A stretch of 47,947 nucleotides of DNA from Spirogloea muscicola (Eukaryota; Streptophyta; Zygnematophyceae; Spirogloeales; Spirogloeaceae). Shown one piece after another: positions 28,551-47,947 of this stretch. A program made the translations under genes and the position numbers. Position 1 is the stretch's first letter, and each line of letters starts with the position of its first letter. The stretch lies in NCBI GenBank assembly GCA_009602725.1, contig WELB01000197.1:215337-263283 (forward strand). Direction: 5' to 3'. The notes under the pieces are model-generated. The model ran no database searches. It was not told where the DNA came from and saw nothing but the letters and a program-made list of their open reading frames with translations.

Positions 28551-28597
28551 ACCCCTAAACCCTTAACCCTAAACCCTAAATCCTGAACCCTTAACCC
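28551..28597 (-). repeat. Interstitial telomeric repeat, CCCTAAA orientation
   Basis: CCCTAAACCCTTAACCCTAA and CCCTAAATCC are followed by TGAACCCTTAACCC. Read on the minus strand this has the same order of variants (GGGTTAAGGGTTCAGG then TTTAGGG) as the terminal tract, so it looks like a left-facing chromosome end opposing the 27.9-kb tract. Confidence 0.93.
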
Positions 28598-30043: not shown

Positions 30044-33000
30044 TTAGAGCTCAAAGGCTGCGGAGTGGAAATTTAGCACCGGCCTCTTGCCCCCAAAGAG
30101 CGGCCACGCGGTGTGCTTGACGCACTGGAGTGCCACCTCGTCACTCATGCCAGTTGGCCCACTCACGAGCACGCCAATGTTAGCTCCCGGTGATGCACTG
30201 TCAATAAGCTCCTTGAAGATGGCTGCGGGCACTCAGAACGAGCAAGGCAGAATTAATGACCTGTCAATTGCACAGCCTTACCTTTATAACTCCTTTTGCA
30301 ACTGCGTCTACATCTCCAATTTCTTGCGAAGGCTACTTCTTAGCATTCACAAGTCTGTGCTGATGTATGGCTATCATGGTTTACGAGAAAGACTGGTTGA
30401 ATTGCACAGTTTATTTGAAAGGCTTGGATGACCGAATGGCCGCCGAAGTGGTGCAGTAGCGCAGGGGGCATGGCAGCAGAGCGCACCATCCCACGGGGGC
30501 CTGCAGCCGTAGACTGCGGTATTGGTTGCAATTGCCTGGTGCTCACTGGAGACTTGGGCGTTGAGCTTCTTGAGGTTACTCTCAAAGGGAGGTCTGGGGC
30601 ACTCTTCAGCGCGCAGTGTTCCCTGAACGGAATGTAAGAAGCATACATGTGGATGTCTTCATCAGCAATCCAGCGTAGAACCTCGCTCTAGAGCCTATCA
30701 CCCCAAGCATGCTCTTGCGTGGAGGCCTTAAGGCTTGGCTAGACAGCTGGAGGAGGGGCAGACAGGGGCTGCCTTGGATTACCTGCTGCCGGTGCGTAGA
30801 TGGGAGGAGGAGGTACCAGAGCGGCACAGTTATAATCATTGCAACAAGGATGCCGGAGATCAGACCCCCAATCACCATCCATGCAAACTGAGCCGTGGAC
30901 ATTACTTCATATGTCCCGTGGTCCAATGGCCAGGCTATGGAGCGGAGGAAGGCCAGTAAGACAAAGAAGGCAATACCAAGGGTGAAGAGTGCAAATAGGA
31001 AGTTGCGAATATCATTTCCTGCAGGTCACAAGCACAGCCACAGCTTCAGCGCAACAGCATGCTCCACGAGTGTGTCCTTAGAAGACCGTTTCTGAATACA
31101 TTTATCAAGCAGGTGCTTCAATTGGCAGGCAGGCCTCATGGCCCAAGTCATGCATGCAATCGACATACCTTGTCCCACTTTACAGTGCATGGCCTGGATG
31201 TGCTTGGAAGGGGAGCCCAGTGACATAACTCGGTTGCCTTTCACGTGGCCCTGCTCTGCGTCCGGGGCCTGAGCGCCTGTGACGTGGAGCTTCTGCACAA
31301 TGCGGACGTGTTCTGGCAGCTGACTGCAGGTGTCTGCCCAGTCAAGGCCGCCAAGCTTATGGAGGTCCTCCTCGCGACGCACAGCCCAGACCAGCGTCAC
31401 GAGGAGCGGCGTCCTGACGCAGCGGAAGAGAGCGAGCGCTGTTCAGCTAAGATCTCACATTCAAGGCGATGCTGAATGGCGCTATATACACAGCAGAGCA
31501 AGCAGAAGGCACGGTCTTCCTGGTCCTCGCTGGAGACACCACAGTCAAAGAGCTTAGGAGCAATCACAGAGAGCTTACTTAGCTCCTGGCTGGCGGCAAC
31601 GGTGGGCCAGATGGCTCAGCAAAGACATGAAGGGCGTGATGCCAATGCCGCCTGCCGCCAGCAGTAGCTCGTCGTACCTGCAACAATCACATTGCATGGA
31701 GGACTCCGTCACGCATGCGCATGGAACGCACCTTCATGTGCATGCATCCCTTTCTACTCAGCTGGTTTAGCACCTAGGAGACTCCTGCACACGAGCATCA
31801 CCGTTTGGCTGGGACACGAGCATCACCGATGTGTCCTGGCAGATATGGAGGTGGGAATCATCTATTTTTGATATTTGACAGCAGGATTGTGCTGGCCTAC
31901 AGACAGAAGAATCTAAGCACATTGTCCCGAGAAAAGGCATTGTTTGGAGTTTAGGGTATTAAAATTTACAACTCACAACCGCGAGCACTGCGCGTGAGGA
32001 GCCCAGCTGGATTGGTCAATGTGCACCGAATAAAGTCAATCTACAGAGCTGACAGGATAAAAAGACGTGCACTAGCAAAACCGAGCGTTGACTGGCACCT
32101 TGACCAGGTGGTGAGAGCAGCTCACTTCATGAGGAGGTCCTGCTCCTGGCCATAGGGCCCCTCCACCTTCAGCAGGAGGGGCTGCTGGCCCAACGCCTCC
32201 ACATGAGCTGCCAACTTCCGCGTCCAGCCCCCGAGCGGCTTCATGATCACGCTCAGAGACCTACGCCCGTCAAGGGGACTGGAGCTGATGCTAAAGGGGT
32301 GCCACTGGAGGCGCGAGATGACTGGCACGTTGATGAAGACAATGTCGAGCGGCTTGTACTGGACACCTGTGAGAGGGTTGCCAAGTGTCACAGTGCCCGT
32401 CAGAATGCACCTTTGTGGATGTGAACCAGTCAATGTGGGCGCGAGCAATTATTATGACTACCTGACAACCCAAGGCATGGCGACTTTCTCTATTTAGTCT
32501 CACACTCCACAGAGATCATAAGCACGCAAGTCAATGCCAGCCCCACTGGCCGAATCTAAAGTCTGCTATGTGCTACCTGAGGTGCAAGGGCCAGCCTAGA
32601 GTCAGCTGCAGGCGGGCCAGGCAGAAGACACGCAGTGGCCGACACAATCAAAGCACCACACTGTAGTACACGGGCTTTCTGATGAAGGAGCAAGCTCCAG
32701 GCCAACCTGATGCAATTGGGATGACTATCTCCAGCCGGCTATCCGCCATGGACGTCACGCTCTCAGCTCTTACCAGGTTCCAAGACTGGACTGCTCTTGC
32801 AATTCGGTCAATGCCAAAGAAAGTGAGTCCCGGCAAGATGTAGAAGATGCCAAAGTCGCCAAGATGCAGGGCCACGAAGACCATGTAGGGCAGGTACAGC
32901 TGCTTAGGACAACATGCCCACGTGAAGCACACTTGTCACAGCTCAAGCAGCATCACGCTGCAAGCAAAGCTCTACAAGCATCCAGAGGGTGCACATTGTG

Positions 33001-35108
33001 CATGTGTGTTGAACGTGCTCCATTGGTAAGCAGCTTTACTCATCAACATTGATCAGAGTGATCGCAATCTGGTGTCTGCAAGTTCATCCACACTTCATTC
33101 AAGGCAATAGCAATTCGCCCCCTCCTGTCTCTGGCTTACATAATGGAGGTAAAAGAAGAGCTCGAATCTTTTTCGTCGCACAAACTCCAGCGAGGAAAAG
33201 AAGATGACCAAAAGAATGATTATGGCAATGACGCCTGGAAGGTTTGCAATTCCAAACTCCTGCCAATTGAAAGACTGCACGCGCCCACCAAACACTGTAG
33301 GTCACTATCTGCGGCTAAATGCTTGTAAGCCTCCCGCACCAATACGGCACTGGACCAGATGCGTATGGTGAGGTCAGCTACTGCTTATGCTACAACAGCT
33401 CGAATGCTGTATGGCCGGCGGTCGCCCAAAGATCGACTCATCATCTGAAGTTGCTGACTTCCACGCACGTCAGTGAGTGCATGCCTCTCTCACCTCCTTC
33501 CAGAGGCGTTCCTGGTCTATCCACAGCGAAAAGTAGCCTATGGCATGGAGCAATTCCAGCACAAAATGACCCACGCATAGCCAGCGGTGGTACTTGACGG
33601 CCTGCTCGAACGGGATGCCACACAGCCTGAGGAGTGCCGAGCCTCGAGTCACAGGAATGAATATGACAATAAGCGGCAGAAAGCCAACCCAGCCGATATT
33701 GACGCTGGCGGCGTCCCAGATATATTGGTACCTGCATGGTTGCAGCACGCCATGTGACTAGATCCGGGGTCCACGAAGAAAGCTGCACGGCATCCCTCTA
33801 TGAGCGACCTGCTGCCAGCCGATGGCTGTTGCCGCGACGGCAATGAGGCGGGGGGGAGCTGGAGGGCTGCATTCCTTAATCTTAAGGACAGGCCCCCTCA
33901 GTGAGTCATCCTCCACCACCAGCGCAGGACTATCTCACCTGGGCTCCACGCTCGCATCAAAGTCTGGAGAGTCGGCGTTCTTGATGGAGTCATTCTGGTA
34001 TTTGGCAAACTGGTAGACAATAACTGCCGTGACGACACTGGCCCAGAATATCTCAGTCACCGTCAGCGGGCCGAGGGGAGTCCTCGAGAGGAGGACGAAC
34101 CTCCCTGCTCGAGACAGCTTCTCCCGGACATTGGTTCCGGATTCCCTGCAGATGCAAACGTTGCACAGATGATCAGGACTCGCAAGGAGGCCATCTTCAG
34201 CAGAATCTGTGTGCAGCGAAGAGAGTCCTTGCCCGATCCTGCATGCCAGCTTTGTGGCTTGCCCACACACGAGTTGCTGCAGCCTGATGGCTCAGACCTG
34301 GTGCAGGCCTGCGGAGGGTTTGGTGAGGTCCTAGGTGTGCCGCACGACTCAAGGCCTCTTCAGCCACGGGTTGTGCCCTGATGGTCGCAAATTGACTTGC
34401 ATGAGTGCTACTCTACTCACCGCTTCCGACCAGGTGCCAGCGCGCGAGAGGCAAAGTACAGAGGCGCCAGAAGCGCGATAAGGTACAGCGGCACTAAGTA
34501 CATCACCGAATACCCCTCTGCAGAGCAACGCACGCATCAAGACACGCTTGCTAGCCTCTGAGGAAACGGCTGTTGCCTCTCAAGCGCGCAGTGGCAAACT
34601 ATTAGTCCTATGCCAGCGAAAGACGTGTCCTCACAAGAAGTTCGGAGAGGCTGAGCCTCTGGTCGTCACAGGCAAGGGCCGGAGGGCTCACCATAGCCAT
34701 GCATCCACCGCGAGGGGTTGATGTCGAGCGGCTTCCAGACCTTGTTGTAGCCCCAGTTCGTGGCGAAGATGGACCAGGCGAAGATAAACCAGACCCAGGA
34801 GAGCCAGCAGACTGCAAGGATCGAGTCCGCGCACCTTGTGGAGTGCCCCCGCAGCAAGGTGCATGCGTCGGTCAGATCTGGGATCGCGCGTGAGATCTCA
34901 ACAACGCGGGGCACATGTTCCTCGGACACGCTATGAGGGCAGCGGTCAGCACTGCACTCCTGGCGAGCGCTTGCACGGAAGCACAATGGGGTGAGACCCA
35001 CCTGCCAAGAATTGGCGGGAGGAAGGGAGATCGCTTCTCGCCGGCAGGCGGCGGCTGCGCCGTCGCGGCGCTGCGCTCAGAGAGGACATGCTCGACGGCC
35101 GCCGCCAT
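30044..35108 (-). CDS. FRO: Plant-type ferric-chelate reductase (FRO family), about 14 exons
   Basis: This membrane flavocytochrome moves electrons from NAD(P)H through FAD and two hemes to reduce extracellular or organellar Fe(III) or Cu(II). The ATG is at 35108. Exons I can place are 35108-35002, 34811-34692, 34517-34421, 34145-33939, 33731-33494 (G-I-P-F-E-Q-A-V-K-Y-H-R-W-L and H-A-I-G-Y, heme-binding helices), 33293-33140 (R-R-K-R-F-E-L-F-F-Y-L-H-Y), 32899-32707 (V-A-L-H-L-G-D...F-G-I-D-R), about 32410-32126 (L-Q-W-H-P-F-S-I-S-S-S, FAD), 31677-31579 (A-A-G-G-I-G-I-T-P-F, nucleotide binding), 31413-31169, 31018-30783 (two membrane segments inserted in the NAD domain, as in plant FROs), about 30690-30470, and 30232-30044 (V-G-V-L-V-S-G-P-T-G-M, ending F-H-S-A-A-F-E-L, TAA). 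A small exon near 33770-33850 is uncertain. No frame break is obvious, so the gene may be functional. Confidence 0.92.
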
Positions 35109-35700
35109 GCGGAGTCGCAAGGAGCTAGCGGCCGCGGGGGCACGAGGCTGGCAGCGGTGTTGGTCGACCCCGCGCGGTGTCGGTCGGAGCTCCTCGGTGA
35201 CTTACCGGGAGCTCGAGCGGGGGCTCGGTCGCCCTCGGATTGGAGCGGCTGGTAGGCCCACCGCGCGAGCTGCCGCGGGTGTCAGCCGGGGCGTGGCCAA
35301 TCGCGATCTCGGGCCGGCCGGGGCCCCGCGGGCGTCGGCCGCGGGCAGCGCCGGGAGGAGTGGGCCGGGCTACCGGCCCGCGCGTGGGGGCGCGNCCCGC
35401 CCCCGCGCTGCCGGCGCGCACGCGCGCGCCGCACGGGCGGCGCCACCCGGCCGGTTTGCCTCGCATGGCGGACTCCGAGCCTGTCCCCGCACCACGGCCC
35501 CCCACCGCTACTGCTGCGACACGCCGAGCGCACATTGCTGCGCTTGTGGCTCCTGCGCCCCCTCTGACAAGCAAGGCCCCCGCCGGGGCTTGCACCGCTG
35601 CGCTGCATCGCCCGCCTGCCCTCGCCCGCGTGTTGGCAACAGACATTCCCTTCCGAAGGGTGCCTGTGTAGACTGCCCAAGCGACACATCTGGATGCGCA
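35109..35700 (+). other. GC-rich putative promoter island with a possible divergent first exon
   Basis: Extremely GC- and CpG-rich sequence upstream of the ferric reductase ATG, with one ambiguous base at 35395. A plus-strand ORF from ATG 35466 to the stop at 35669-35671 (M-A-D-S-E-P-V-P-A-P-R-P-P, Ala/Pro-rich, 68 codons) could be the first exon of a divergent gene, but long open frames exist on both strands purely because of base composition. GC content drops sharply after about 35710, where bacterial-like sequence begins. Confidence 0.35.
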
Positions 35701-35735
35701 AGCGGGCAGCACGACGCAAAGCGATATTAGCTCCG

Positions 35736-36202
35736 TCAAGGCTTGTCTGTTCGGGCTTGGTTGTTGTACGCGTGCGCAGCCCAACCGCAAGCATATGCGG
35801 TGGTTGAAACGGCAAACCCTGCAAAACGAGATAGACGAGCGTCAACTTGCCGCAAGGTGCAAGTGAGCCTCTGCAAGAGGTTCCATCGCTTCTGCACATC
35901 GACGAGTCTCGGAGGTAGAGATCCTCTTTCAAGCAACAGGCCATCCACTGACCGACAGGATTTAGCAGGCACATTGCTCTTCACCAGACGATGTGCTCCC
36001 CGTGAAGGTCACCACCGGCTGGTCAGATCGGCGATATGCGGTGTGATCCCTGTCGGCAACTTCAGTGCGTAGTGCTCCACTAGTAGCAACATCATCCATA
36101 GAGATTACGGAAGCGCCGGCGCCGAAGTAACCGGGAACTCCTGCAGGCATCGAAAGTGAACAACTTTCTAACACCTTCAAATACTGATCTTGAGGACGTG
36201 GC
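35736..36202 (-). other. Unrecognised reading frames at the left edge of the foreign block
   Basis: A minus-strand frame (about 36200-35962) encodes Y-L-K-V-L-E-S-C-S-L-S-M-P-A-G-V-P-G-Y-F-G-A-G and ends G-E-E-Q-C-A-C-stop. A second frame (35984-35736) and overlapping plus-strand frames have no known signature. The first frame is open through the adjacent 105-bp element, which may have created that continuity by chance. Confidence 0.3.
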
Positions 36203-36310
36203 CCGGCGAAAGCGGCCCGTGAGAACACATTATTTACATAATAGTTTCTATCAGACCCCAGCGAACTGAGCAATTTGCTTAATGATCGCACATCGATATG
36301 CCTATCTATC
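36203..36310 (-). repeat. Dispersed ~105-bp element, copy B, at the truncated end of the left Prim-Pol gene
   Basis: Complete copy on the minus strand, from GATAGATAGGCATATCGATG to GGGCCGCTTTCGCCGG. Its first bases supply the codons GAT AGA TAG, ending the Prim-Pol frame directly after R-N-C. Confidence 0.85.
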
Positions 36311-36709
36311 GCAGTTGCGAATGTGCTCCCGGTATGCTTTGGGCACCAAGTAGTACCGGTGATACCCATTGCTGGGCGTAAGAACCACCACCGCGCCCGG
36401 TGCATCCACCGGCCCAAAGCGCTCTTCGAAGTAAGCAACGCCATCGATCTTCGTCTGATGGTCTACCCGTTGGGGTTTGCGGCGATCGATGTCGAGGACC
36501 ACAAAGTCAACGCCCCGTCCGAGCGGAAAGCCCACGTGTGTGGCGTAGGAGGAGCTGACATCGTCTACGACGTACTGCCAATCGGTGATGGCCGGTCGCT
36601 TGTCAAGCTTGCCTTTGCGCTCATTGTCGTCGACTTTCACGGCAAAGCAACGCGGGATGATACTCTGAATAAGCTTCACTGCACGTTCGTTGTCCATGAT
36701 GCTCAACAT
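36302..36709 (-). pseudogene. Prim-Pol (bifunctional DNA primase/polymerase N-terminal domain), left copy, C-terminally truncated
   Basis: Archaeo-eukaryotic primase-like Prim-Pol domains start DNA synthesis on plasmids, phages and some viruses. The frame starts M-L-S-I-M-D-N-E-R-A-V. It contains D-K-R-P-A-I-T-D-W (N-terminal motif), V-D-F-V-V-L-D-I-D (the paired acidic metal-binding motif) and a later V-V-V-L-T-P-S-N-G-Y-H-R-Y-Y (the T-P-S-G-G-x-H-like motif), in the usual order and spacing. At 135 residues it is only the catalytic domain or less; such proteins usually continue into a helicase or primase C-terminal region, missing here because the dispersed element interrupts the frame. Upstream lie iteron-like repeats (36738-36770). 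The right copy at 43.15 kb is about 90-95% similar by eye and inverted. Confidence 0.75.
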
Positions 36710-36737
36710 TGTTTGCTTAGGAATGCCATAACAATTT

Positions 36738-36770
36738 GAGTGGGCGCTGAGTGGGTATTGAGTGGATTGG
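36738..36770 (-). repeat. Iteron-like 11-bp direct repeats upstream of the left Prim-Pol gene
   Basis: Three contiguous 11-bp units on the plus strand: GAGTGGGCGCT, GAGTGGGTATT and GAGTGGATTGG. More GAGTGGG/CCCACTC-type words occur at about 36925-36950. Spacing of one DNA turn just upstream of a replication gene is typical of Rep-binding iterons; that role is inferred. Confidence 0.55.
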
Positions 36771-36959
36771 CCAGGACATCTTTTTGGACATGAAACACAG
36801 GATTTGACACGCTGTTTTGTATTTTAACGACTGGTTTGTAGTTTGAGTTTGTGAGTGGCTAGAGTTAATAAGCCGCATAGCTCTTCCCACCGATGTTGCA
36901 GAAGAGGTGGTAGACCCCTGAGAGCCCACTCAGCGCACTCAGCGCCGGCGAAGAGGCTG

Positions 36960-38040
36960 CATGGGGCATCGGCGCGGAGAGAACTATATCGAAGACATAC
37001 TTTGCGATCATCTGCGAGCACTACATTATTCGATCTACATGTTGGGACTCGAAATCAACGATGCGCTCGCTCACCATTGGACTGTGATTAATCTGAGTAC
37101 GATTTGCATTGCATTATTTACTTAGTAATTCCTTTATATTTTTTGTCGTTAGGAGAGTTGAATATCTGCTACCCCACTTTACCCAATAAATGCCTATAAA
37201 AACTACTAACTAAAGCAAAGTGTCTTAAACAAGAGAGTGCCTTACTCATATCTTCATAAGTGGGGGGTAGTAGCGTGCAAACTGTCGATGTTTCAGACGA
37301 AGTCATTGAAGATCTCATATGAGGATAGGTTCGCTATGTTGTCGGATAACCCCCGCGTCACGGTCATGCTTCCAGTCGGTAAGGAGATGATTTGTAATCG
37401 GCGATAAGTAGATGCATTCTTTTCAGGCGCCGAGCGGCAGCTATCATGCGTTGTCGACGGGCAAGGCCAAGCCTTGTTATGGTGCGTCTCATGGGTGTAG
37501 TCGCTTTAGCAATCACTACAATTGTTTTAGGTGATTAAGACTTCCTGGTTGCGGCGGATGTATTACCCACCTGATCGATTTTGTAACCAAGGCGGCATTG
37601 GCAACGTAGTAGGAGGTCTTAAACGGTCAAGAGGAGGAGCTGACGGTGCCCTAGAAATGCCTGATTGCGGCGGGCGAATGACCATGATAGCTGGTGTGTT
37701 ACCCGCCTCATTGGGGTCGCGCCCGAGGCGGCGCTGGCGCCTCACGGCGGCCTAGAAAAGATCGTTGGCAATTTCTTGAGCGCTACGAATGTGTTGTCCT
37801 GCAACGTAAGCGTTGATAACTTGGTCGCTCATAACTTGATTTACTGCTGAGTTTACAGTCACAAATAGGCTTCTCTTGAATCTTGTAGCTTAATTGATGT
37901 GACCTGCGGCCGCTGCCTTGCAGCATTTGGGTGCGTAGAACATTCAGCACCTCGCGATAGGCCTGCAGCAGCAATAAGAGCAGTTCGTTGCGGTATTCTT
38001 CTGCGATTTTCTATCTCTTCGTGCTGCCCATGGTCAACAG
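36960..38040. other. AT-rich foreign sequence without an intact gene
   Basis: Contains AT-rich tracts (37100-37260) and, at 37540-37760, two related stretches (GGTTGCGGCGGATG... and GATTGCGGCGGGCG..., each followed by TTACCC(A/G)CCT) that look like a diverged local duplication of bacterial coding sequence. I recognise no protein family. Confidence 0.3.
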
Positions 38041-38250
38041 TTAGACGCTGCGGCCGATATTACCACAAAGCAGTACACGATTGTTCCCCATGTTGATAAT
38101 GTAGGGGCGCGAACCGCGGAAGAACACATCAGCAATTGAAGAACAATGAACTTGCCCATTTAGCGGGCCACAGGGTTCGCCATACCATTCAACGTTTCCT
38201 GCATGCTTGAGTGCTGCGCGCACCTGCAAAGGATCCGATGGATCCTCCAA
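38041..38250 (-). other. Unrecognised C-terminal reading frame, possibly continuing the upstream ORF
   Basis: This 69-codon minus-strand frame (D-P-S-D-P-L-Q-V-R-A-A-L-K-H-A-G-N ... I-I-N-M-G-N-N-R-V-L-L-C-G-N) is open upstream to about 38275, overlapping the end of the 209-residue ORF in another frame. A single frameshift could have split one longer protein. No family is recognised. Confidence 0.35.
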
Positions 38251-38255
38251 ATAGT

Positions 38256-38885
38256 TCAGGGCTGTCGCACCTGAGGTAAAAAGATTTCTGTAGCCCTTGT
38301 ACTATTCTCTGAAGATTCGAGTAAATTAGGGTCATCAGGTAGTTCTTCAGCTAGAATAACACGATTTAGACGTGGCATAAATTTTGATCCGCAATGTACC
38401 TCGTCTTTAGTATGAATCTGACGCTCTACAGCTATAATGTCTTCTAGATAATGGCCTTCTTCTAGTTTTACGGAGCTATGTCGAAGCTCAGGATCGTTGG
38501 CTTCTTGCTGTAGCACCGCACGTGTCAGGGGTTTGCGCATGACCTTCTCTTGTTTGTAATAGTAGTAGCAAGCAGCGCCTACGAGACATGCGGCTGCAAC
38601 GGCAGCGATTGGCCAGAAGATAGCTGCGACTATCAGGGTCCCCGGCAAAAAGCAGGTTGCTACTGCAACTGGCGTTGCTATCAACATAGTTAAAGCAGAG
38701 GCTCTCTGTGCGTACTGCGCATGCCTAAAGCAAGCCTTTACTGGGTGGGTTCCCAAGCGATAAGGTGCAGCCGCCTGGATTGCTCTGGCATGTAAGGCAA
38801 ACTCTCTTTGATGGTCGTTCCGACCATCCGCATGAGCCGAGTCTTGTCTTGATACTTCGATGCATATCTTTAAATAAATCAGCAT
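38256..38885 (-). CDS. Unrecognised 209-residue protein with a double hydrophobic segment
   Basis: ATG at 38885 and stop near 38256. Residues about 65-110 form two adjacent hydrophobic stretches (M-L-I-A-T-P-V-A-V-A-T-C-F-L-P-G and V-A-A-I-F-W-P-I-A-A-V-A-A-A-C-L), followed by Y-Y-Y-Y-K-Q-E-K and a charged soluble tail. A hairpin-membrane protein with a cytosolic tail resembles inclusion- or effector-type membrane proteins of intracellular bacteria, but no family is identified and that is only an analogy. It is the longest undamaged frame of the foreign block. The kinase-like fragment lies just upstream on the same strand. Confidence 0.5.
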   Translation of the reverse strand: MLIYLKICIEVSRQDSAHADGRNDHQREFALHARAIQAAAPYRLGTHPVKACFRHAQYAQRASALTMLIATPVAVATCFLPGTLIVAAIFWPIAAVAAACLVGAACYYYYKQEKVMRKPLTRAVLQQEANDPELRHSSVKLEEGHYLEDIIAVERQIHTKDEVHCGSKFMPRLNRVILAEELPDDPNLLESSENSTRATEIFLPQVRQP

Positions 38886-38897
38886 AATCAGTAATTC

Positions 38898-39143
38898 CTA
38901 GTAAATAGTCTTTGTAGTCTCGTGGCCTAAGAAACGTGGATTAAGAGACAGGTACCCACCAAGTATACAATGGGCTAATGTAAGGCCAAGCCCGTACACA
39001 TCATGTGATTTTCTTGCTATTGCATTAGCATTTGGCGCTTTATCCCTGATTGTCTTCTGCCCAACGATTTTATACCATCTCTGACTGAGCAACCAAAGTC
39101 TGCTAGTTCCACAGTTCCTTCTCGAAATATTCATGGAATTCAT
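38898..39143 (-). pseudogene. Protein kinase-like fragment, frameshifted
   Basis: One minus-strand frame encodes G-T-V-E-L-A-D-F-G-C-S-V-R-D-G, with the D-F-G metal-binding motif at 39100-39092. After a frameshift near 39075 the next frame reads A-I-A-R-K-S-H-D-V-Y-G-L-G-L-T-L-A-H-C-I-L-G-G, matching the D-V-Y/W-x-L-G helix that follows the activation loop in Ser/Thr kinases. The N-lobe and catalytic loop are not seen. Eukaryotic-like kinases of this kind occur in intracellular bacteria and giant viruses; the origin is open. Confidence 0.5.
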
Positions 39144-39199
39144 GGGATTGTGTTGTTGTGCAGTATTTACATCACATAATATTATATCTCTTTTTCAAC

Positions 39200-39992
39200 A
39201 CCGGGGTCCGGTGCAGGCATCAGCATTGCTCGCCAATGCGAGCTCCTTGGGACAAGCAGGTCCGGCTACTACTATCAGCTTGCTGCGGAGACCGACATGA
39301 ACCTGCGCGTGATGTCCGCCATCGACCGCGAGTACACCGCTCGACCGTTTTACGGGGTGCGCAGGATTAACCATGCGCTCCGGGCACAGGGCGAGTTTTA
39401 CCAATCACAAGCGGGTGCAGCGCCTTATGCATCCGATGGGTTACCCCGCGGTGCACCCAAGCCCTAACACATCGAAGCCCGCGGTTGACCACAAAGTCTA
39501 CCCCTACCTTTGAAGAATCTCGAAGTAATCAGGCCCAATCAAGTCTGGGCAATCGACATCACGTACATCCCAATGCGACGCGGAGTTCTCTACCTGATTG
39601 CTATCTTCGATTTGTTCAGTCGGTACGGTCTGGCCTAAGTATTGTCCAACACAATGGACGTCGATTTCTGCCTCACCGCGTTGGAAAGGGCGCTCGCTAG
39701 GGAACAGCCTGATATTTTCAATAGCGACCAAGGAGCCCAATTTACGAGCGTCGATTTTACGAGCCGACTCCTTCACAATGGAGTACAAATTAGTATTGAC
39801 AGCAGAGGACGATGGCTCGACAACGTGTTCATCGAAAGGCTGTGGCGCAGAGTGAAGTATGAAGAAGTTTATTTGCATGAATTCGTGAGTGGAGCCGTGG
39901 CATTTGAAAGGTTGAGAGACTATTTTGAGTTCTACAATGACGATCGCCCCCATCAAGCACTGGGGTACAAAACCCCTAAAGAGGTGTTTTAA
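39200..39992 (+). pseudogene. IS3-family transposase OrfB, 3' portion (DDE integrase core), frameshifted
   Basis: The region encodes S-I-A-R-Q-C-E-L-L-G-T-S-R-S-G-Y-Y-Y, then F-Y-G-V-R-R-I-N-H-A-L, K-V-Y-P-Y-L, N-Q-V-W-A-I-D-I-T-Y-I-P-M (first catalytic D), N-S-D-Q-G-A-Q-F-T-S (second D) and D-N-V-F-I-E-R-L-W-R (catalytic E), ending H-Q-A-L-G-Y-K-T-P-K-E-V-F-stop. Frame changes occur near 39395 and 39510, and a stop at about 39637. Its start lacks the first residues of OrfB; the matching missing half lies on the minus strand at 44345-44690. Downstream (39993-40060) is the likely IS end region with TTTTTTGTCC. Confidence 0.88.
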
Positions 39993-40220
39993 AGCAGGAA
40001 TGACTCTCTCTTAAACTGACCCGTTTTTTGTCCAAACAATGGGTACACCTCAAACTGTATTGCACCCGCTTTCCAAAAAGCAGGCTGATTGTCGAGGGCA
40101 TTAGAAAACCGCTGTTTGTTATTCACTGCTGTTGTGTACGAGGGGCGGCTGCTTTGAATCTTCCAGGTTTGCGGACACCTCCATAATTGTACCGTAAATA
40201 TATTTAAGGCTCTTACTTAT

Positions 40221-40680
40221 ATGGGAATAATCCTTGTCCCTACCTCACCACGTACATCACACTTAGAAAGCCGTCGACGTACACGGCGCCTTTGGCGCCA
40301 ATTGGCTGGACCTCCTTCACCGCCTTGCGAGGCGAGCAGCGGCCCGCCGCCACGGGCAGCAGGGCGAGCAGCCTGGCTTCCATGTCGCCGGGTCCCTCGC
40401 CCAAGTATTCCGGATGCGCCTGGCCGTCTCTTTGCAGCGGTCCCTAGCTTTCGCTGTCCACTTGCGCGCAGGCCGCGCTCTGGCTTCCGTCAGGGCGACG
40501 TCTTTCCGCCTGCTAGCTACTCAGATTTGCATCTACTGAAGAGAGGTTACTGAGAGTTCGCTTACTGCTGTCTCAGTCCTTAGCACTCCGACTCCTTCAG
40601 ACCTTGTTCATTCTTTTGGGCTGGCCTCTCCCAGCCACCAGTTAATCTGGCCGCGCTTGCTCCTGAAAGCCTAAGAAGAG
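40221..40680 (+). mobile_element. Resident algal retrotransposon 3' end inside the bacterial-like block
   Basis: The coding tail reads R-M-R-L-A-V-S-L-Q-R-S-L-A-F-A-V-H-L-R-A-G-R-A-L, then S-V-R-A-T-S-F-R-L (about 40410-40555), ending near GAGAGGTTACTGA. It is followed by GTTCATTCTTTTGGGCTGGCCTCTCCCAGCC, the hairpin module, at about 40605-40635. It closely resembles the 10.9-kb copy, so this is the same algal family, flanked by bacterial IS and element copies. Confidence 0.65.
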
Positions 40681-40906
40681 ATTCTCGCCATCCTCTAGGA
40701 TAATGACCATTTCTAGTGGGATTAGATTTTGTATATGTTTCAACCGCGCCCCTCATACAATCTATCATGCCAGCACACTTAATTTTGTCCTCTTTTTTGC
40801 TAGACACTTTTGGTAGGTACGCTCAGTATCATGTCGTATCGCAATCGATAGGCAAAAAGTTGGTGTCGTTCAATTATTAGGAGGGCTTAAGATGACATCT
40901 CATACG

Positions 40907-40972
40907 CTAGATGAGCAAATCGATCATGGTCTGATAGGAACCATGCGGGCCGCTTTCGCCGGCGGTTCGCCT
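40907..40972 (+). repeat. Dispersed ~105-bp element, copy C, internally deleted
   Basis: Reads CTAGATGAGCAAATCGATCA, then GGTCTGATAGGAACC and GCGGGCCGCTTTCGCCGG. About 40 bp of the central part (GCAAATTGCTCA through TTCGCTGG) are missing. Same orientation as copies D and E. Confidence 0.65.
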
Positions 40973-41132
40973 GGCCTGTTGACATTAGCCGAAATAGATT
41001 TATCCGAGTGGCAACAGAATGAAACTGAAGTGAGGAGAAGCCTGGCTTGAGTCGCGTACTGCGGTACCAGCAAAAAGCAGCACTTGGAAAAGTTAGATAA
41101 CACAATGCCTACTTATGTAGCTTTACAGTCTC

Positions 41133-41777
41133 ATGACCCCAACCCGAACCGGGGTAGTATCATTATCCGGGCAGACGCGGGAAAAGTTCATATATGGGAA
41201 GTGTGGATACTTCAAAAGCATGACGACGCAATGTATTCAGCATAAAGAAAGTGGTCGGGTTTTTACGCACGACAACATTCCAGACTATTTTCTTCGAACA
41301 ACCAGCAATACTAACGATCATACGTTGTGGGAGTTGGAAAGTGTCCCTGATAATATTTTGTGATCCCGCCTTCGTAATTCTTAGACAAAGAGGTATCTTG
41401 GATGCGACGGTAGGGACAGCAATCGCGTTTTTGCGCGCAGGGATGATAAACCAAATTCTGATTTTGGCTAGGGGATTATGGAACTTGACAGTAATCGTCT
41501 GCCCTCGGGAAGTATTGTTGTGCAGGATTTGATCTTTTTTACCTCTATAATAACAGCTCTCGCTGGCGCCTTAGCGCTTTCTTTTCTGTTCCCGCCTTTT
41601 GCAGTACCGGAAGCGGTCGCCGGAACAGCGGCAATAGCAACGGCGGCTGCAGGCCTGGGGACTGGTGTTATAGTGATACTGATGTCGCCACAGAATGAGA
41701 TACCAGGTCGGCTGACTACTGCCAGTTTTGGGAGTGGAGAAGTTTTCAAAATTGTTGTAGGCGGAGCTACAGGTTAG
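41133..41777 (+). other. Two unrecognised bacterial-like reading frames
   Basis: The first frame (41133-41363) has G-Y-F-K-S-M-T-T-Q-C-I-Q-H-K-E-S-G and ends P-D-N-I-L-stop. The second (41478-41777) has two hydrophobic stretches (F-F-T-S-I-I-T-A-L-A-G-A-L-A-L-S-F-L and A-I-A-T-A-A-A-G-L-G-T-G-V-I-V-I-L-M), like a small membrane protein. Neither has a recognised family. They stop just before the retrotransposon copy at 41.84 kb. Confidence 0.35.
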
Positions 41778-41839
41778 CCAGTCACCGTTGATAGATGTGC
41801 CAAAATTGGACAAGAGAAGTGCACATAAAACCGGGAACT

Positions 41840-42600
41840 CAAAAGTACTATCGCTTCTGCTTTTTTTTGCAAGATGCGCAACAACTAGAGGGACACCCCC
41901 TAAGCTTCCGTGCAGAGGGTGCTGAGCTCGCCACTCACATGCTGCGATGCCCCACTGGACCAGAAGTGGTGGGCATCCACAAGCTCCTCCGTGACGCTCT
42001 GGCGGGTTTGATGCGCGACGCCGGGTACCGTGCGGTCGTGGAAGTGAAAAACATCACGCCTATCGCCACGGATGCCCAGGGACGTCATCATCGCCGCACA
42101 CTTGACATTGTGGGCGTGCAACCTGGTGGAGGACCACGGGCCTTGGTCGATGTTGTGGTAACGGAGGCCTATAAAGGTCCAGCATCGACACACATCTCTG
42201 GCCACGCAGTGGGCAGTGCTGAACAAAGAAAGTTGCAGCACTCCTCCGATTACCCCCCCATGTGATCAGCTCCTGCCAGCGGCAATCGACATCTTTGGCT
42301 GCTTAGGTCCTCGTTTCCTTACTCTCCTTCAAAACATAGCCAATCTAGGCTACACACGACATGCAGATGTGTTCCCGGCTGAGATGGGCTTGCCAGCTGC
42401 GTATCTGCTGTTCTTGCGACGACGAGTTTCGGCCTATTTGCAGCGTGCTCAGGCTAATGCTTTGCACCAGAAAGCTGGGCGAGCTCTAGTTGGTGGTAGA
42501 AGGGCTTCGTATCTGCCATCTAGTATTCAGGCATCGGTTAGCGACCTTTATGTTTTGACCTGTGGTCACTGAGCGGGTCAATCTACTGTAGGATAAGTAG
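41840..42600 (+). mobile_element. Resident retrotransposon C-terminal domain and tail, best-preserved copy
   Basis: Frame 1 (to 42263) has E-L-A-T-H-M-L-R-C, L-L-R-D-A-L-A-G-L-M-R-D-A-G-Y, E-V-K-N-I-T-P, R-R-T-L-D-I-V and A-L-V-D-V-V-V-T-E-A, the PD-(D/E)XK-like pattern. After a frame change near 42250, 42266-42572 reads D-Q-L-L-P-A-A-I-D-I-F-G and R-A-Q-A-N-A-L-H-Q-K-A-G-R-A-L, ending Y-V-L-T-C-G-H-stop. A diverged 3' UTR follows. This subfamily differs from the abundant one, and its nearest relative in the window is the decayed fragment at 27.1 kb. Confidence 0.6.
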
Positions 42601-42914
42601 GTCTTAAGACGTGTTTGCCTTCGTACTTGGCCATTTGGCCTTCGTTTGTTTCAAATACACGAAACTTTTTACTAATCGTGGCTACTTTTCAGGCTGCGGC
42701 AGGACACCTGGGCTGCCTTCCAAGCGAAGTATACATAAGCGATTTACATGAGGGCTATTTTGACCTTCACGTATACTACATCGCATCGTGTCGCGATTGG
42801 AAGGTGCTTTGTACATATGTCGGCCCTGTCTTTTATTGCTCTGATTGGAAGACCCAATAGATCACAACGATCTCGATCTCATAAGGCGATCTGGGCATGC
42901 GACACAAGGGCGGT

Positions 42915-43147
42915 CGGCCTCTTTGCCGGCTCTGAGTGGGCTGAGTGGGCACTCAGGGGTCTACCACCTCTTCTGCAACATCGGTAAGAAGAGCTATACG
43001 GCTATTTATTTCTACCCACTCACACACTCTACTGTAAATCAGTCAATACAAAACGTGTCAAATCCTGTGTTTCATGTCCAAAATGATGTCCTGGCCAATC
43101 CACTCAACACCCACTCAACGCCCACTCAAATTGATATGGCACTTCGA
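42915..43147 (+). repeat. Upstream region of the right Prim-Pol copy with iteron-like repeats (inverted partner of ~36.73-36.96 kb)
   Basis: This repeats, in inverted orientation and with scattered differences, the region upstream of the left Prim-Pol gene. It contains the word groups GAGTGGGCTGAGTGGGCACTC (about 42936-42956) and, at 43098-43132, the units CCACTCAACA, CCCACTCAACG and CCCACTCAAA. Shared stretches such as TCAGGGGTCTACCACCTC and CTTCTGCAACATCGG show common origin. Confidence 0.7.
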
Positions 43148-43512
43148 AGCAAACATTGTTGAGCATCATGGACAACGAACGTGCAGTGAACCTTATTAAG
43201 AGTATCATCCCGCGCTGCTTTGCCGTGAAGGTCGATTACAATGAGCGAAAAGGAAGGTTCGACAAGCGACCAGCCATCACCGATTGGCAGTACGTCGTAG
43301 ACGATGTCAGCTCCTCCTACGCCACACACGTGAGCTTTCTGCTCGGACGGGGCGTCGACTTTGTGGTCCTAGACATCGATCGCCGCAACCCTTAAACGGG
43401 TTGACCATCAGAAGAAGATCGATGGCGTTGCTTACTTCGAAAAGCGCTTTGGGCCGGTGGATGCACCCGGCGCGGTGGTGGTGCGCACGCCCAGCAATGG
43501 GTATCACCGATA
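43148..43512 (+). pseudogene. Prim-Pol gene, right copy, frameshifted and truncated
   Basis: Same protein as the left copy: M-D-N-E-R-A-V-N-L-I, D-K-R-P-A-I-T-D-W, V-D-F-V-V-L-D-I-D-R. The first ATG of the left copy is changed to TTG here. A frameshift right after the L-D-I-D-R-R motif ends the frame at 43393-43395. The following frame carries G-V-A-Y-F-E-K-R-F-G-P-V-D-A-P-G and V-V-V-R-T-P-S-N-G-Y-H-R, then runs into the dispersed element about 53 bp earlier in the gene than in the left copy. Non-functional. Confidence 0.8.
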
Positions 43513-43618
43513 AGTAGGCAATTCGATGTGCGATCATAAAGCAAATTGCTCAATTCGCTGGGGTCTGATAGAAAATTTTATCATGGATTAATGTGGTCTC
43601 ACGGGCCGCTTTCGCCGG
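43509..43618 (+). repeat. Dispersed ~105-bp element, copy D, ending the right Prim-Pol frame
   Basis: Reads CGATAAGTAGGCAATTCGAT, then GTGCGATCAT, GCAAATTGCTCA, TTCGCTGGGGTCTGATAG, a diverged AT core, GTGGTCTCACGGGCCGC and TTTCGCCGG. It follows G-Y-H of the Prim-Pol frame and introduces a TAA two codons later. Confidence 0.85.
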
Positions 43619-44340
43619 AAGCTTCAAATGATAAACTTAACGGAGCCGGTTATTGTCGACAAATAACCATTAATACTCTCCAAAATGGAATTGATACTTC
43701 TTATCGGCAACTTGCAAAAATCTCAGATACTCAGCTAAGAAGCATTGTTCAATGCCTTAATGCATGTTACCGGCAAAATCATCCAGGTGAAACTGGTTAC
43801 CGAGTAAGAGATGATGTTTATGGAAGCATAGTAAATATACTTACAGTACAAGATGCTCCGCATTATGCAGTTTAGAATAACCCCTCAACATAAGATCTGC
43901 AAGGAATGTACATGGTTGAAGATTATATCTTATAAATACAAGCCTTAATACTATTACATTCGCAAATACTTCTCTACTGGGAGTTTTAGCCCGATACATG
44001 CGTGTTATAATAATTTGGGGCGTGCAAGGTGCCTAAACGTAGTAGGATTTACTCCCAATAAAAGCAGAGATATTCAACCACTTTGTTATCGCCAAAATAC
44101 GTGCTGCAATACATCAATGGCTTTGAATATTATACTAGGCGTGACATGTTCCTATTCTAAAATATATATTGCACAACACAATCTTCTGCACGGCCCTATA
44201 CAATATCACTGATGACAAAGAGACCAAAGGGTATATTGTTCAGTGGGTTATGGGTGGCTCTGGTACGGATCTTATTAGCATTGGAAACCCAGTACCACGT
44301 GCTTTTATCAAAGACTTGTTTGCCAAATTAGCTGTATGTT
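43619..44340 (+). other. AT-rich foreign sequence with unrecognised frames
   Basis: A frame at 43619-43875 encodes I-N-T-L-Q-N-G-I-D-T-S-Y-R-Q-L-A-K-I and ends D-A-P-H-Y-A-V-stop. A second, at about 44215-44354, encodes G-Y-I-V-Q-W-V-M-G-G-S-G-T-D-L-I-S-I-G-N and F-I-K-D-L-F-A-K-L. Both look like genuine bacterial protein pieces by composition, but I recognise no family. The AT content is the highest in the window. Confidence 0.35.
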
Positions 44341-44344
44341 GCAA

Positions 44345-44690
44345 AGCTCGATGATTTGGCGACGGTCATCAAGGGAGACCACCAGTTTTTTCTTAACCAT
44401 TCCAGTTCCACCTTCAACTGGCCTATTTGTTGATACAGCGCATCGAGCAGAAGCTCATCGGCGCGCTCCTGCTTACGAGCGGTGCCCCGCTCAAACAGGG
44501 ATGAGGCGCCTTCCTGTAATTGCTTCTTCCAGATGGCAATCTGTCACGGATGCACACGAGACTCTTGCGCCATTTTGGCGACGGTCTTATGTCCATGCAC
44601 CGCCTCCATCACTACACGCGCTTTGTGCTGGGTCATGGACCGGACCGGACCCTTCTTCATGTTCGCTCCGATGGTGGGCATCTGAACAGG
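44345..44690 (-). pseudogene. IS3-family transposase OrfA and first residues of OrfB
   Basis: On the minus strand the frame reads M-T-Q-H-K-A-R-V-V-M-E-A-V, T-V-A-K-M-A-Q-E and V-H-P, a stop, then Q-I-A-I-W-K-K-Q-L, Y-Q-Q-I-G-Q-L-K-V-E-L-E-W-L and K-K. This is the helix-turn-helix plus coiled-coil layout of IS3 OrfA. It ends with S-L-D-D-R-R-Q-I-I-E, which matches the usual start of OrfB, and breaks off at about 44345. The rest of OrfB is the fragment at 39.2-40.0 kb on the opposite strand. Confidence 0.8.
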
Positions 44691-44699
44691 TAGGATATC

Positions 44700-45143
44700 T
44701 CTTAAACTTCTGTCCGACAATGGGGGTGGGTGCACTTCAGCTCGCGCCTCCGCCGCAGGCGACATATAAAGCGGGCATCTAGGCCAATGGCTTATGCGAG
44801 TACGTCATCGATTCCACTTCGCACCGCAAAACCAAATCTGAATGCTTGAAACATCCCGAAACCGCGAAGGGACCCGGGCTAGTTAGTGCCCCGTCATAAA
44901 ATGCTGTATTCCTTGGCGAAACCTTAAATTTCGCGCGTAGGAGTTGCCTTCGGCCCGGTGGCCTGAAGAAAGCTGGCGCGTAAGCGCCTCGATTTTCTAC
45001 AATGACGTTTCCCGGGCATAGCAGCACCGCAGGGGCGACACTGGCGGCCACATTCTAAGAAACGCGTCGCGCTTTCCGGCTAACGCGGTGGATCCCGCGG
45101 GATGACGTGCCATGATCACAAAATTGGTGGTGATCACGTATGC
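44700..45143. other. Unassigned foreign sequence; hairpin at 45113-45136
   Basis: No gene is recognised. The hairpin TGATCAC-(AAAATTGGTG)-GTGATCA lies about 10 bp beyond the stop of the ISNCY-type transposase and may be its terminator or part of the element end. Confidence 0.4.
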
Positions 45144-46450
45144 CTAAGCATATGCTTTAAAAGATGGGAGGCCACTCCACGTACATCGAGACATACCGAA
45201 AGTTCGCTTGAGATACGAAATGGTACTTTCAATACCAGCGCGAAATCGTTTCAATACTCTGTACACGGCTTGCGTAGAAGTCATGTCAGATAACTCGAGT
45301 CCACACTTTCTGCTGAATGCAACGTCTTCGATACCGACCTTCTTGATGTCGAACAGGTTTGCCCGTGAGGCGAAGCCACCATCAAAAGCGACCTGCTGAG
45401 GCGCACTGCCAAGGACGCCTTTGACTCGTTCAATCATGGTCAGTGCAAGTGACGAATCCGCAGGGTATCCGTCACCGATAATGCAGTCCAGAATGATGCC
45501 TGACTTTCGCGAAGTGAAAAACAGTTTGTGGCCACACTCCACTGCTCGACGACCTTTTATGATAATATCGATATGCAGCTCAAAAATAGAAACAATATTC
45601 TCCTCCAATGGGACAGGTTGCTGATCAAAAATGCGTCGACGCGTTTGCACGAGTACCTGTTGCGCGAGGGCATGAAAATGAGCCATTGCCCCTTCTATGC
45701 CCATCGCAGCGATGCTTGCGCTCAATTTCAGGGCGGGGATGGCGACTTGTGCGTACTCAATCGCTTTTTCAGTGACATAGTAAAGATCTCTCTGCACAGC
45801 GGCTCCCGAACGTCATGCGTCGCTGCATATTGGATTGCTATCATCCGCCTTTTGGCAATCCGTGAATGGTCTTGAAAAATGTAGGCCGCGTGGGCTTTGC
45901 TTCGTGCATTACACGAGTCAGCACACGTACGCAGTCCCAGAGCAGCGAAGAATCCAAGAGAGCATGGATATTTGTCTGAGTCACTGTGCTATCGCCGCGG
46001 ATGCTCGCCCCGTCCTCGATTGACTGCTTCATAGCCTGAGCAATAAGACGCTTGTTGATCTTCTCAAGCGCATCCGCCAAAAAATTTTAATATTACGCTG
46101 AAAAGTGCCTTTCGTCGGGAATTGACCCGCGTGCAGGCGGACGAATGCGTGATATGCTACCGACTCACCCAATGCAAGAACCAAGTCTTCATAGCTTTAC
46201 GTTGCTTCACAATCAACGCACGCAAGACTTGCTCGGCACTTAATCCAGTGCGCCCAATTTTTTACGAGGGATGTCCACCTGACTTTCGCGTCCCTATACG
46301 ATATCTCCGTATCCATTGTAGAAGCTCTGTCCCGAGCTGGTCTACCAGCGTACTGATCTTTTCCCTTTCAAGCCGTTCGCCCCTCAAAACTTGGCCAGCT
46401 TGAGTTGGCATAAGGGGCAGTTGATGGTGTAGGGTGGCACGCATTGGGTC
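45144..46450 (-). pseudogene. ISNCY-type (IS5/IS1182-like DDE) transposase, frameshifted
   Basis: Reading along the minus strand, pieces appear in family order but in different frames: L-P-L-M-P and L-V-D-Q-L-G-T-E-L (about 46430-46270), L-S-A-E-Q-V-L-R-A-L-I-V-K-Q (about 46245-46200), then D-S-T-V-T-Q-T-N-I-H (first catalytic D region) and S-S-L-L-W-D-C-V-R-V-L-T-R (46080-45841). The long frame 45797-45144 has I-K-G-R-R-A-V-E-C-G-H-K-L-F-F-T, Q-Q-V-A-F-D-G-G-F-A-S (second D) and F-R-A-G-I-E-S-T-I-S-Y-L-K-R (catalytic E), ending S-F-K-A-Y-A-stop. At least three frame breaks make it inactive. Confidence 0.85.
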
Positions 46451-46479
46451 GGCTTTCTCCGTAGCTACCCACCACCCGT

Positions 46480-47072
46480 CTTGCCGTTCTGATGGCGGCC
46501 AGCAATGAAACAGGCGTGGTGCAACCGGTCGCGCAGGTCGCAGCTGCCTGCCGACGGCGGGCCATCTTGCTGCATACAGATGCTGTACAAGCAGTGGGCA
46601 AGATGCCCATCGACGTACAGCATTGGGGTGTCGATCTGCTGGCTTTCGCTGGCCACAAGCTGGGCGCACTCGGTGGTACAGGTGTTCTGTACGTTCGGCG
46701 GGGCGTTGCCCTCATTGCCATCGTCCTCGGCGCACAGCAGCAGGGGAGCCGCGGTGGCATCGAAAATGTCGCTGGACCCGCCTCTTTGGCGGCCGCATTA
46801 CAGCTTTGCCCGACGTGGCCGAGCTGCGGCGGTGGCCAAGCGACGCAATCCGTTTGAGCAAACTTTATGCGCACAGCTCAACGATATCGACATTGTGGGG
46901 CTTACGGCTCGCCGCTTGCCCAACACGAGCTGCATCAGATACCTGGCTGCGCAGCTGATCGCTTATTGATGGCGCTCGATCTACAAGGCTTGGCCGTCAG
47001 CACTGGCAGTGCGTGCAGCTCTGGAACTATCGAACCATCGCCTATCCTTTTAGGCTTGAGCCCAACGAGATG
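46480..47072 (+). pseudogene. Cysteine desulfurase (NifS/IscS-like), 5'-truncated and frameshifted
   Basis: PLP enzymes of this family supply sulfur from cysteine for Fe-S clusters and tRNA thiolation. The segment starts inside the protein at A-S-N-E-T-G-V-V-Q-P-V. It includes L-L-H-T-D-A-V-Q-A-V-G-K (aspartate contacting PLP), F-A-G-H-K-L-G-A (the PLP-binding lysine in the family's S-G-H-K motif), G-I-E-N-V-A-G and, in another frame, R-R-L-P-N-T-S. It ends with L-A-V-S-T-G-S-A-C-S-S-G (the active-site cysteine loop) and I-E-P-S-P-I-L. At least two frameshifts occur (about 46800-46840 and 46940). The first third of the gene is absent, and the ISNCY-type pseudogene lies immediately upstream on the other strand. 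Confidence 0.85.
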
Positions 47073-47087
47073 AGGCACGGGAAGCAG

Positions 47088-47110
47088 TAACCCTAAACCC
47101 TAAACCTAAA
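47088..47110 (-). repeat. Short interstitial telomeric repeat (CCCTAAA orientation)
   Basis: About three units: CCCTAAACCCTAAACCTAAA. It directly follows the end of the cysteine desulfurase pseudogene. The orientation is opposite to the terminal tract 760 bp further on. Confidence 0.85.
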
Positions 47111-47403
47111 TGGGAATTCTTTTCTGCGTCATTTTCCCGTCGCTCAAGTGCGTTTGAGCGATGCGGTCGTCGACGTGGCTAGGCGTATGCGCACGGCTCG
47201 TAGATGTGCTTAGGCGAGCCGCCAGCCACGCGGTGCATGCTAACGTTGTGTTTATGCAGCAAATTGCTTTGACATGCAAAGGTGCTGCGGTCAATTCCCG
47301 ATACATAGGTGTGACCTTACGCCTCATGTGTTGTGTCGCGGCTAATCAAGGCCATCGCATAAGCCAATGGCTGAGCATTGCGCAAGGTCAATAATATGAG
47401 ACC

Positions 47404-47529
47404 ATGCAAGAGGCCGATGTTGTCATCAATTTTTCCGCCCCAGCCATTTGCCGACAGTTGTTGCCAGTATGCCTGCATCGCAAGCTCTATCTTGTTGCTT
47501 CCACCTGTTTAAGCAACACAGATAGATAG
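47404..47529 (+). pseudogene. Fragment resembling dihydrodipicolinate reductase (DapB)
   Basis: The 41-codon frame contains E-A-D-V-V-I-N-F-S-A-P, close to the D-V-V-I-D-F-(S/T)-x-P motif after the NAD(P)-binding fold of DapB (lysine and diaminopimelate synthesis), then L-L-P-V-C and Y-L-V-A-S-T-C-L in place of the usual L-V-I-G-T-T-G. The N-terminal Rossmann glycine motif is not seen upstream. The frame ends in N-T-D-R-stop, where D-R-stop is the start of dispersed element copy E. The match is short. Confidence 0.4.
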
Positions 47530-47624
47530 GCAAATCGATGTGCGCTCACTAAGAAAATTGCTCAGTCAGCTGGGGCCTGATTGGCACCATGATGTAAATA
47601 TTGCTCACCAGGCGCTTTCGCCGG
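47521..47624 (+). repeat. Dispersed ~105-bp element, copy E
   Basis: Reads GATAGATAGGCAAATCGATG, TGCGCTCACTAAGAAAATTG, CTCAGTCAGCTGGGGCCTGA, a diverged core with ATGATGTAAATATTG, and GGCGCTTTCGCCGG. It is the most diverged full-length copy, only about 250 bp from the telomeric tract. Confidence 0.8.
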
Positions 47625-47871
47625 CTTGAGCTTGCAATGACCTTACGGGATGCCTGCTTTGAAAGTGCAGTACCCTAACAGAACCTTTGCAGAGGATAAA
47701 CGTCGTTGTCTTGAGTCGGATCCGCGTCAAAGCCTACGCAGGGGCACACCTCGCATGTACTTAAGTCCAAGGTACTGAGTGGTATATTGTTTTTAAGCTT
47801 ATGAAATTAATTTTCTTTTGGTAACTAAAAGCCACCAGCATATTTACCATCGGGTTTAGTGATTCAGGCTA

Positions 47872-47947
47872 TAGGGTTTGGGGTTTGGGATTTAAGGCTG
47901 AGGGTTAAGGGTTCAGGGTTTAGGGTTTAGGGTTTCGGGTTTAGGGT
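47872..47947 (+). repeat. Terminal telomeric repeat (TTTAGGG)
   Basis: Degenerate units (AGGGTTTGGGGTTTGGGATT) pass into GGGTTAAGGGTTCAGGG and then regular TTTAGGG to the window end. This is the plant and green-algal telomere repeat in right-end orientation, indicating the chromosome terminus or sequence very close to it. Confidence 0.93.

Follow-up and report, generated by a model that had tools for sequence, protein, structure and literature searches.

The end of contig WELB01000197.1 (hereafter C197) of the alga Spirogloea muscicola carries bacterial-type DNA alongside telomere repeats. The window analysed here is the whole 47,947-nucleotide stretch at positions 215,337 to 263,283 of the forward strand, which forms the end of C197, and the host genome searched comprised 153.1 Mb in 471 contigs. 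In the window, host DNA is interrupted at ca. 28 kb by two opposed telomere arrays enclosing a short foreign insert, and it gives way at 36,203 to a foreign block of 11.4 kb, in the following order (window coordinates).

26,483–27,890, plus strand: host DNA, read as the end of chromosome X, with a 78% paralog on contig C362
27,891–27,972, plus strand: TTTAGGG-type array of 82 bp with three perfect units, running rightward
27,973–28,552, no strand assigned: foreign insert of ca. 580 bp containing one copy (B) of a ca. 108-bp repeat
28,553–28,597, minus strand: CCCTAAA-type array, read as the inverted telomere of a chromosome end Y, with a homeologous telomere on contig C355
28,598–36,202, no strand assigned: host DNA, read as the last 7.6 kb of chromosome end Y
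36,203–47,624: foreign block
47,852–47,947, plus strand: terminal TTTAGGG-type array at the contig end

Since telomere arrays stand at or near base 1 of contigs C10, C22, C29 and C346, TTTAGGG was taken to be the telomere repeat of this genome. The TTTAGGG array at 27.9 kb faces the CCCTAAA array at 28.6 kb across the foreign insert, which is a head-to-head layout. On the left side, the paralog on C362 shows no telomere repeats where the position equivalent to 27,891 is passed and the sequence runs on, and C362 itself ends without a telomere. On the right side, the homeologous contig C355 terminates in a telomere array from ca. 88,026, in matching orientation and ca. 0.44 kb past its last match to the window. 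Because this array lies near the matching position, we read 28,553–36,202 as the final 7.6 kb of another chromosome end, inverted and joined to the first in head-to-head fashion. We take a past genome triplication of the host to be the source of the homeologs. A preliminary description of this DNA, made from the letters alone, had passed over both the insert and the arrays at 27.9–28.6 kb. With these included, the structure looks like more than an insertion at a chromosome end, namely a telomere-to-telomere fusion followed by a break.

The right-hand host edge was located to the base by the same homeolog. The minus strand of C355 matches the window over 29,668–36,202 in five pieces with 74–88% identity, and the match stops one base before the repeat. 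It ends with ...GGACGTGGC, and the continuation is AATATTGCCACACAAG in C355 versus CCGGCGAAAGCGG in the window. Since the match reaches 36,202, the DNA between 35.7 and 36.2 kb is host DNA, and the boundary that had been placed at ca. 35.7 kb has to be moved accordingly. Foreign DNA begins at 36,203, which is the CCGG end of the ca. 108-bp repeat, and C355 extends 79.6 kb beyond the breakpoint, to the contig end. The intact host site at the breakpoint (C355:79,640–79,660) is a perfect 16-bp palindrome, GTGGCAATATTGCCAC.

The composition of the DNA was measured as the observed/expected ratio of CpG (CpG o/e) and compared on overlapping 1-kb windows with a GC fraction below 0.55. The ratio was at least 0.78 in foreign DNA (mean 1.02, n = 14) and at most 0.74 in host DNA (mean 0.54, n = 38), so that the ranges were disjoint. 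By segment, it was 0.95–1.08 in five pieces of the block outside two host repeat fragments (p1 and p2, below) as against 0.64 in X and 0.61 in Y up to 34,700, and it was 0.87 in the 28-kb insert. A host exon at 24,124–25,455 showed 95% identity over 87% of the query to the protein SM000229S07509, and the next matches listed, many of them from land plants, had ca. 50% identity. Elsewhere in the host part, 12,949–13,229 holds two copies of a 141-bp tandem repeat, with related sequence on the homeologous contigs C355 and C362.

The repeat whose end forms the host–foreign junction, which the preliminary description did not mention, is present in five copies.

36,203–36,311, plus strand: copy A, the CCGG end being the host–foreign junction
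28,025–28,135, plus strand: copy B, inside the 28-kb insert, CCGG end to the left (similarity from 28,025)
43,508–43,618, minus strand: copy C, in an inverted Prim-Pol unit (similarity from 43,618)
47,517–47,624, minus strand: copy D, whose end has three mismatches
40,850–40,962, minus strand: copy E, internally shortened, with an exact 17-bp end at 40,946–40,962

All five copies resemble one another up to CCGG, where the similarity breaks off abruptly. Copies A, B, C and E have the 17-bp end, CCGGCGAAAGCGGCCCG, without a mismatch, and D has it with three mismatches. When the 153-Mb genome was searched for it with up to one mismatch, five matches were obtained, four of which were exact and lay in C197, while the remaining, inexact one lay in C43. 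Since a reversed control pattern gave seven matches at the same threshold, the single-mismatch matches are attributable to chance. The exact end thus occurred nowhere in the genome outside C197, and it is present at both foreign inserts of this contig. Column agreement with copy A was 102/112 for B, 97/113 for C and 88/112 for D, while in E the end and some stretches of the remainder are retained; the only part common to copies B, D and E is the end. Exact matches of the repeat patterns were found neither in viral contigs nor in genome contigs. Because the host junction coincides exactly with the repeat end, the sequence suggests that the repeat either terminates an integrating unit or is a preferred break. 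An integron-type (attC) site was considered and rejected, as four of the five copies were tested and none showed unusual DNA folding (z scores of -0.16 to -0.62).

The following features were found within the foreign block.

36,203–36,957, minus strand: unit composed of Prim-Pol-like piece 1 (open reading frame 36,305–36,709) and repeat copy A
38,259–39,194, minus strand: two uncharacterised open reading frames (38,259–38,897 and 38,901–39,194)
39,180–39,989, plus strand: IS3 transposase OrfB pieces, frameshifted (profile NF033516)
40,270–40,665, no strand assigned: host dispersed repeat fragment p1
41,904–42,668, plus strand: p2, a fragment of a dispersed host repeat without the part that the other copies have upstream
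42,917–43,618, plus strand: inverted Prim-Pol unit with repeat copy C, assigned by DNA similarity to the unit at 36,203–36,957
44,331–44,804, minus strand: IS3 OrfA-type pieces (44,331–44,543 by a weak profile match, 44,547–44,804 by eye only)
45,147–46,086, minus strand: ISNCY-family transposase pieces (NF033593, expectation values (E) of 4.5e-58 and 1.9e-16)
46,465–47,070, plus strand: NifS-type cysteine desulfurase pieces (46,465–46,854 and 46,858–47,070; TIGR03402, E of 1.3e-33 and 1.6e-7, profile positions 137–248 and 301–334)
47,091–47,104, minus strand: two perfect CCCTAAA units, preceded by the NifS pieces and followed by the DapB-like piece
47,401–47,523, plus strand: DapB-like piece (DapB_N, PF01113, E of 2.4e-4, 21.6 bits, under the cut-off of 25.6)

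The IS3, ISNCY, Prim-Pol, cysteine desulfurase and DapB fragments claimed earlier were recovered with unequal strength. Bacterial-type IS3, ISNCY and NifS genes were recognised by profile, all as partial matches beneath the whole-protein cut-offs of their families, and the Prim-Pol and DapB assignments were weaker and below cut-off. The frameshifts and truncations described earlier were borne out, since the gene pieces of the block are split by frameshifts or stops, or truncated; on this evidence, those foreign genes that can be recognised are broken and most likely without function. The IS3 pieces matched NF033516 with E of 7.5e-10, 4.3e-34 and a weak 0.009, covering profile parts 32–81 (E of 0.009), 101–165 and 251–368, and they lie 4–5 kb apart in opposite orientations. 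They look as if a single copy had been split and reshuffled, and two partial copies would give the same picture. No Rfam match and no tRNA were found, and AlphaFold models were too poor for use (mean predicted local distance difference test scores of 48 and 38). The open reading frame at 38,259–38,897 encodes 213 amino acids with membrane-like helical segments by eye, and it had no family match and no relative in viral contigs.

Prim-Pol-like piece 1 matched PF09250 with E of 3.6e-4 and 21.5 bits, under the Pfam cut-off of 22.8, and two PHROG primase families with E of 0.005–0.008. Piece 2, an inverted duplicate that had gone unnoticed, gave no profile match of its own and was named by DNA similarity to piece 1; the pair had no match among solved structures. 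The two units are identical at 639 of 694 aligned positions (92%), with 10 gap runs. Over the 136 codons of copy 1, we counted 12 synonymous and 9 non-synonymous differences, which gives a ratio of non-synonymous to synonymous proportions (pN/pS) of 0.23, from small counts and with copy 2 frameshifted. Under neutrality, at least 12 synonymous differences out of 21 would arise with a probability of 8e-4. Since the differences are mostly synonymous, much of the divergence appears to predate the decay, and the two copies are most simply read as having been separate working genes until it set in. The earlier view of integration followed by decay is therefore only partly supported, as much of the Prim-Pol divergence is older and the CpG content in most of the block is not host-like; the donor may already have been the site of some of the decay.

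Host DNA and telomere units are interspersed among these pieces. The two algal retrotransposon 3' ends reported earlier correspond to the host repeat fragments p1 and p2, and their identity as retrotransposons was not confirmed by profiles: the open reading frames of p2 and that of one other copy (L011) matched no Pfam family, the reverse transcriptase region lying outside that check. Sequence matching p2 at 92–96% occurs in at least 39 other places of the genome (39 of 5,924 candidates were scored). The 25 bp upstream of the p2 copies are near-identical to ATTGGGGTGCGCCAGTGTGAGTGCG in 29 of 30 fetched copies, with L017 differing in the first half, and are missing from the window. No clear target-site duplication was seen at p2, where the sole candidate was CTAA, of 4 nt. 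No match in the genome outside C197 was obtained for the DNA of the block other than p1 and p2. The TTTAGGG cap noted earlier was found as the terminal array, and the internal CCCTAAA units at 47,091–47,104 had been overlooked.

Based on these results, we consider that the contig end is probably, with a probability of about 0.58, the scar of a chromosome-end fusion and breakage repaired with foreign DNA by end joining. Chromosome end X would stop at 27,890 and bear TTTAGGG repeats, and would be linked by the short foreign piece at 27,973–28,552, in head-to-head orientation, to the telomere and final 7.6 kb of Y (28,553–36,202). Y would have been broken at 36,202, its broken end joined to the 11.4 kb of bacterial-type fragments (36,203–47,624) including the two host repeat fragments, and the joined end re-capped with TTTAGGG repeats. 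What the sequence itself shows is the succession of the pieces, the host breakpoint to the base, the telomere at the end of the homeolog and the repeat end common to both foreign inserts. We infer that these joins exist in the cell, that they were made by non-homologous end joining and that the telomere fusion came before the break, as in a breakage-fusion type of history.

Several observations weigh against this fusion-and-repair reading. The terminal array is degenerate and only 96 bp long. The 757 bp of C355 inward from the junction (78,900–79,656) have no counterpart elsewhere in the genome, so that the other half of the supposed break is not seen, and nothing in the 0.44 kb of C355 matches the 1.04 kb that separates the Y array from the homologous part. 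The host stretch 34,701–36,202 has a CpG o/e of 1.02, and the left edge of the block can therefore not be placed by composition alone; the last 227 bp before the terminal array (47,625–47,851) have a value of 0.74, and their origin, like that of 27,973–28,024, is not established. The host–foreign joins are seen in the assembled sequence, and the assembly analysed, which may be a reduced version, differs in its lengths and contig count from the figures for S. muscicola given in two publications: 174 Mb, 566.4 and 17,449, which we read as N50 in kb and scaffolds (PMC11096116), and 170.82 Mb and 566,364 (PMC10095996). In addition, plus-strand TTTAGGG runs straight into CCCTAAA inside contig C27 (905,790–906,317), which may be real or a misassembly, and telomere-like arrays of both orientations are clustered at C441:15,030–15,580 and C256:162,650–163,034. 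Given these arrays, telomere misassembly may be recurrent. As an incidental observation, at another locus (L151, C198 near 259,800) a telomere array gives way to a single N and then to GC-rich sequence, and the locus starts with a GC-rich frame resembling glutathione S-transferase by eye.

A rival reading is an assembly chimera, in which telomere repeats and the short repeat would have made the assembler join host chromosome ends with DNA of a culture bacterium, so that the chromosome does not exist. The arrays in C27, C441 and C256 and the absence of the foreign DNA from the remaining assembly speak for such an artefact. However, an artefact would require no fewer than seven false joins among host, telomere and foreign DNA, and host repeats and telomere units lie inside the block. 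The window contains no runs of N, with single Ns only at 3,908, 13,692 and 35,395, and at 36,202/36,203 host and foreign DNA share no sequence that could make a false overlap. We therefore regard a chimera as unlikely, while giving it real weight. The earlier preference for integration over plain contamination finds support in the assembled sequence: host repeats and telomere units stand among the foreign pieces, a second repeat-bearing piece lies 8 kb away in host DNA, and the homeolog gives a base-exact breakpoint.

Alternatively, the block could be a defined mobile or linear element with the ca. 108-bp repeat as its end, inserted by its own ends and later invaded by host repeats, for example 36,203–43,618 (7,416 bp, with inverted arms of ca. 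0.7 kb) or 36,203–47,624 (11,422 bp). The sharp stop of similarity at CCGG and the position of the host junction on that end are what such an element would leave; the arms at 36,203–36,957 and 42,917–43,618 are 92% identical in inverted orientation, with flush outer ends, and the ends at 36,203 and 47,624 agree in 88 of 112 columns. On the other hand, no target-site duplication is visible by eye at either candidate right end, the homeolog showing the left side only, and the transposases found are broken IS3 and ISNCY pieces only. Copies B, D and E sharing just the end, and the lack of the 17-bp end elsewhere in the host genome and of exact repeat matches in viral and genome contigs, also argue against it, and we find insertion of a self-contained element doubtful. 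A related idea, tentative and not favoured by us, is that a single family of elements supplied the foreign pieces with repeat ends as linear molecules, whose ends were reused repeatedly to join and cap broken algal chromosome ends; it is raised because the breakpoints of both inserts are telomere-associated and belong to one contig, and because the host junction coincides exactly with the element end. If DNA of an endosymbiont, plasmid or virus had integrated once at a chromosome end, then decayed in place and been invaded by host retroelements, with no fusion, the broken genes and the truncated host repeat within the block would be accounted for. This reading is improbable, since it leaves the second foreign piece between opposed arrays and the homeolog telomere unexplained, the synonymous excess between the Prim-Pol copies dates part of their divergence before decay, and p2 has no clear target-site duplication.

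Database matches name no donor. For the Prim-Pol piece, the protein database gave five candidates, none with E of 0.001 or less, and viral contigs and plasmids likewise gave no lead, nor did searches of the block DNA against plasmids and phages. Among plasmids, the best-ranked matches of the IS3 piece had 59% identity (Azospirillum and Roseomonas), with 23 records at 60–80% among the best 5,000, and that of the ISNCY piece had 48% (Rhizobium), all 182 records being below 60%. The ISNCY piece also matched 66 database proteins with identities of 37–60%. The NifS piece matched 73 loci with a best full-length identity of 53%, and a tree of 67 of these plus the window row (six being dropped as shorter than 85 amino acids or containing a stop) did not place it.

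Interstitial telomere repeats are known to arise from end-to-end chromosome fusion. The window resembles these in that TTTAGGG faces CCCTAAA, and differs in having ca. 580 bp of foreign DNA between the arrays. Endosymbiont DNA is likewise known to be transferred to host nuclei, and bacterial genes and insertion sequence elements decaying in nuclear DNA recall such transfers; here, however, no endosymbiont or donor genome was found, and telomeres are involved. From plant transferred-DNA (T-DNA) integration the locus differs in that no T-DNA border or Agrobacterium gene was identified and in its junction repeat. It resembles that process, which is described as end joining with filler DNA, rearrangements and joined pieces (PMC8395108), in that foreign pieces are joined to one another and to host filler at breaks, with rearrangements and with one precise and many ragged ends. 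Bdelloid rotifers, in which horizontally acquired genes are over-represented near telomeres (PMC11258130), likewise have non-metazoan or bacterial-type DNA close to the ends of chromosomes and in the neighbourhood of mobile elements; in the rotifers, numerous genes, often intact, lie at many ends, whereas here a single contig end carries broken pieces with a base-resolved junction. Among the open-access papers listed on telomere fusion with bacterial DNA, telomerase-linked capture of foreign DNA, Rickettsiales in green algal nuclei and intracellular bacteria in Zygnematophyceae, titles and abstract openings revealed no case of the kind described here.

If reads confirm the joins, this locus would be a base-resolved entry of bacterial-type DNA into a nucleus of the plant lineage through the repair of a broken or fused chromosome end, in which one side of the break has an undisturbed homeolog. 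A proposed route of horizontal transfer, by capture at telomeres and breaks, could then be tested directly in an algal relative of land plants.

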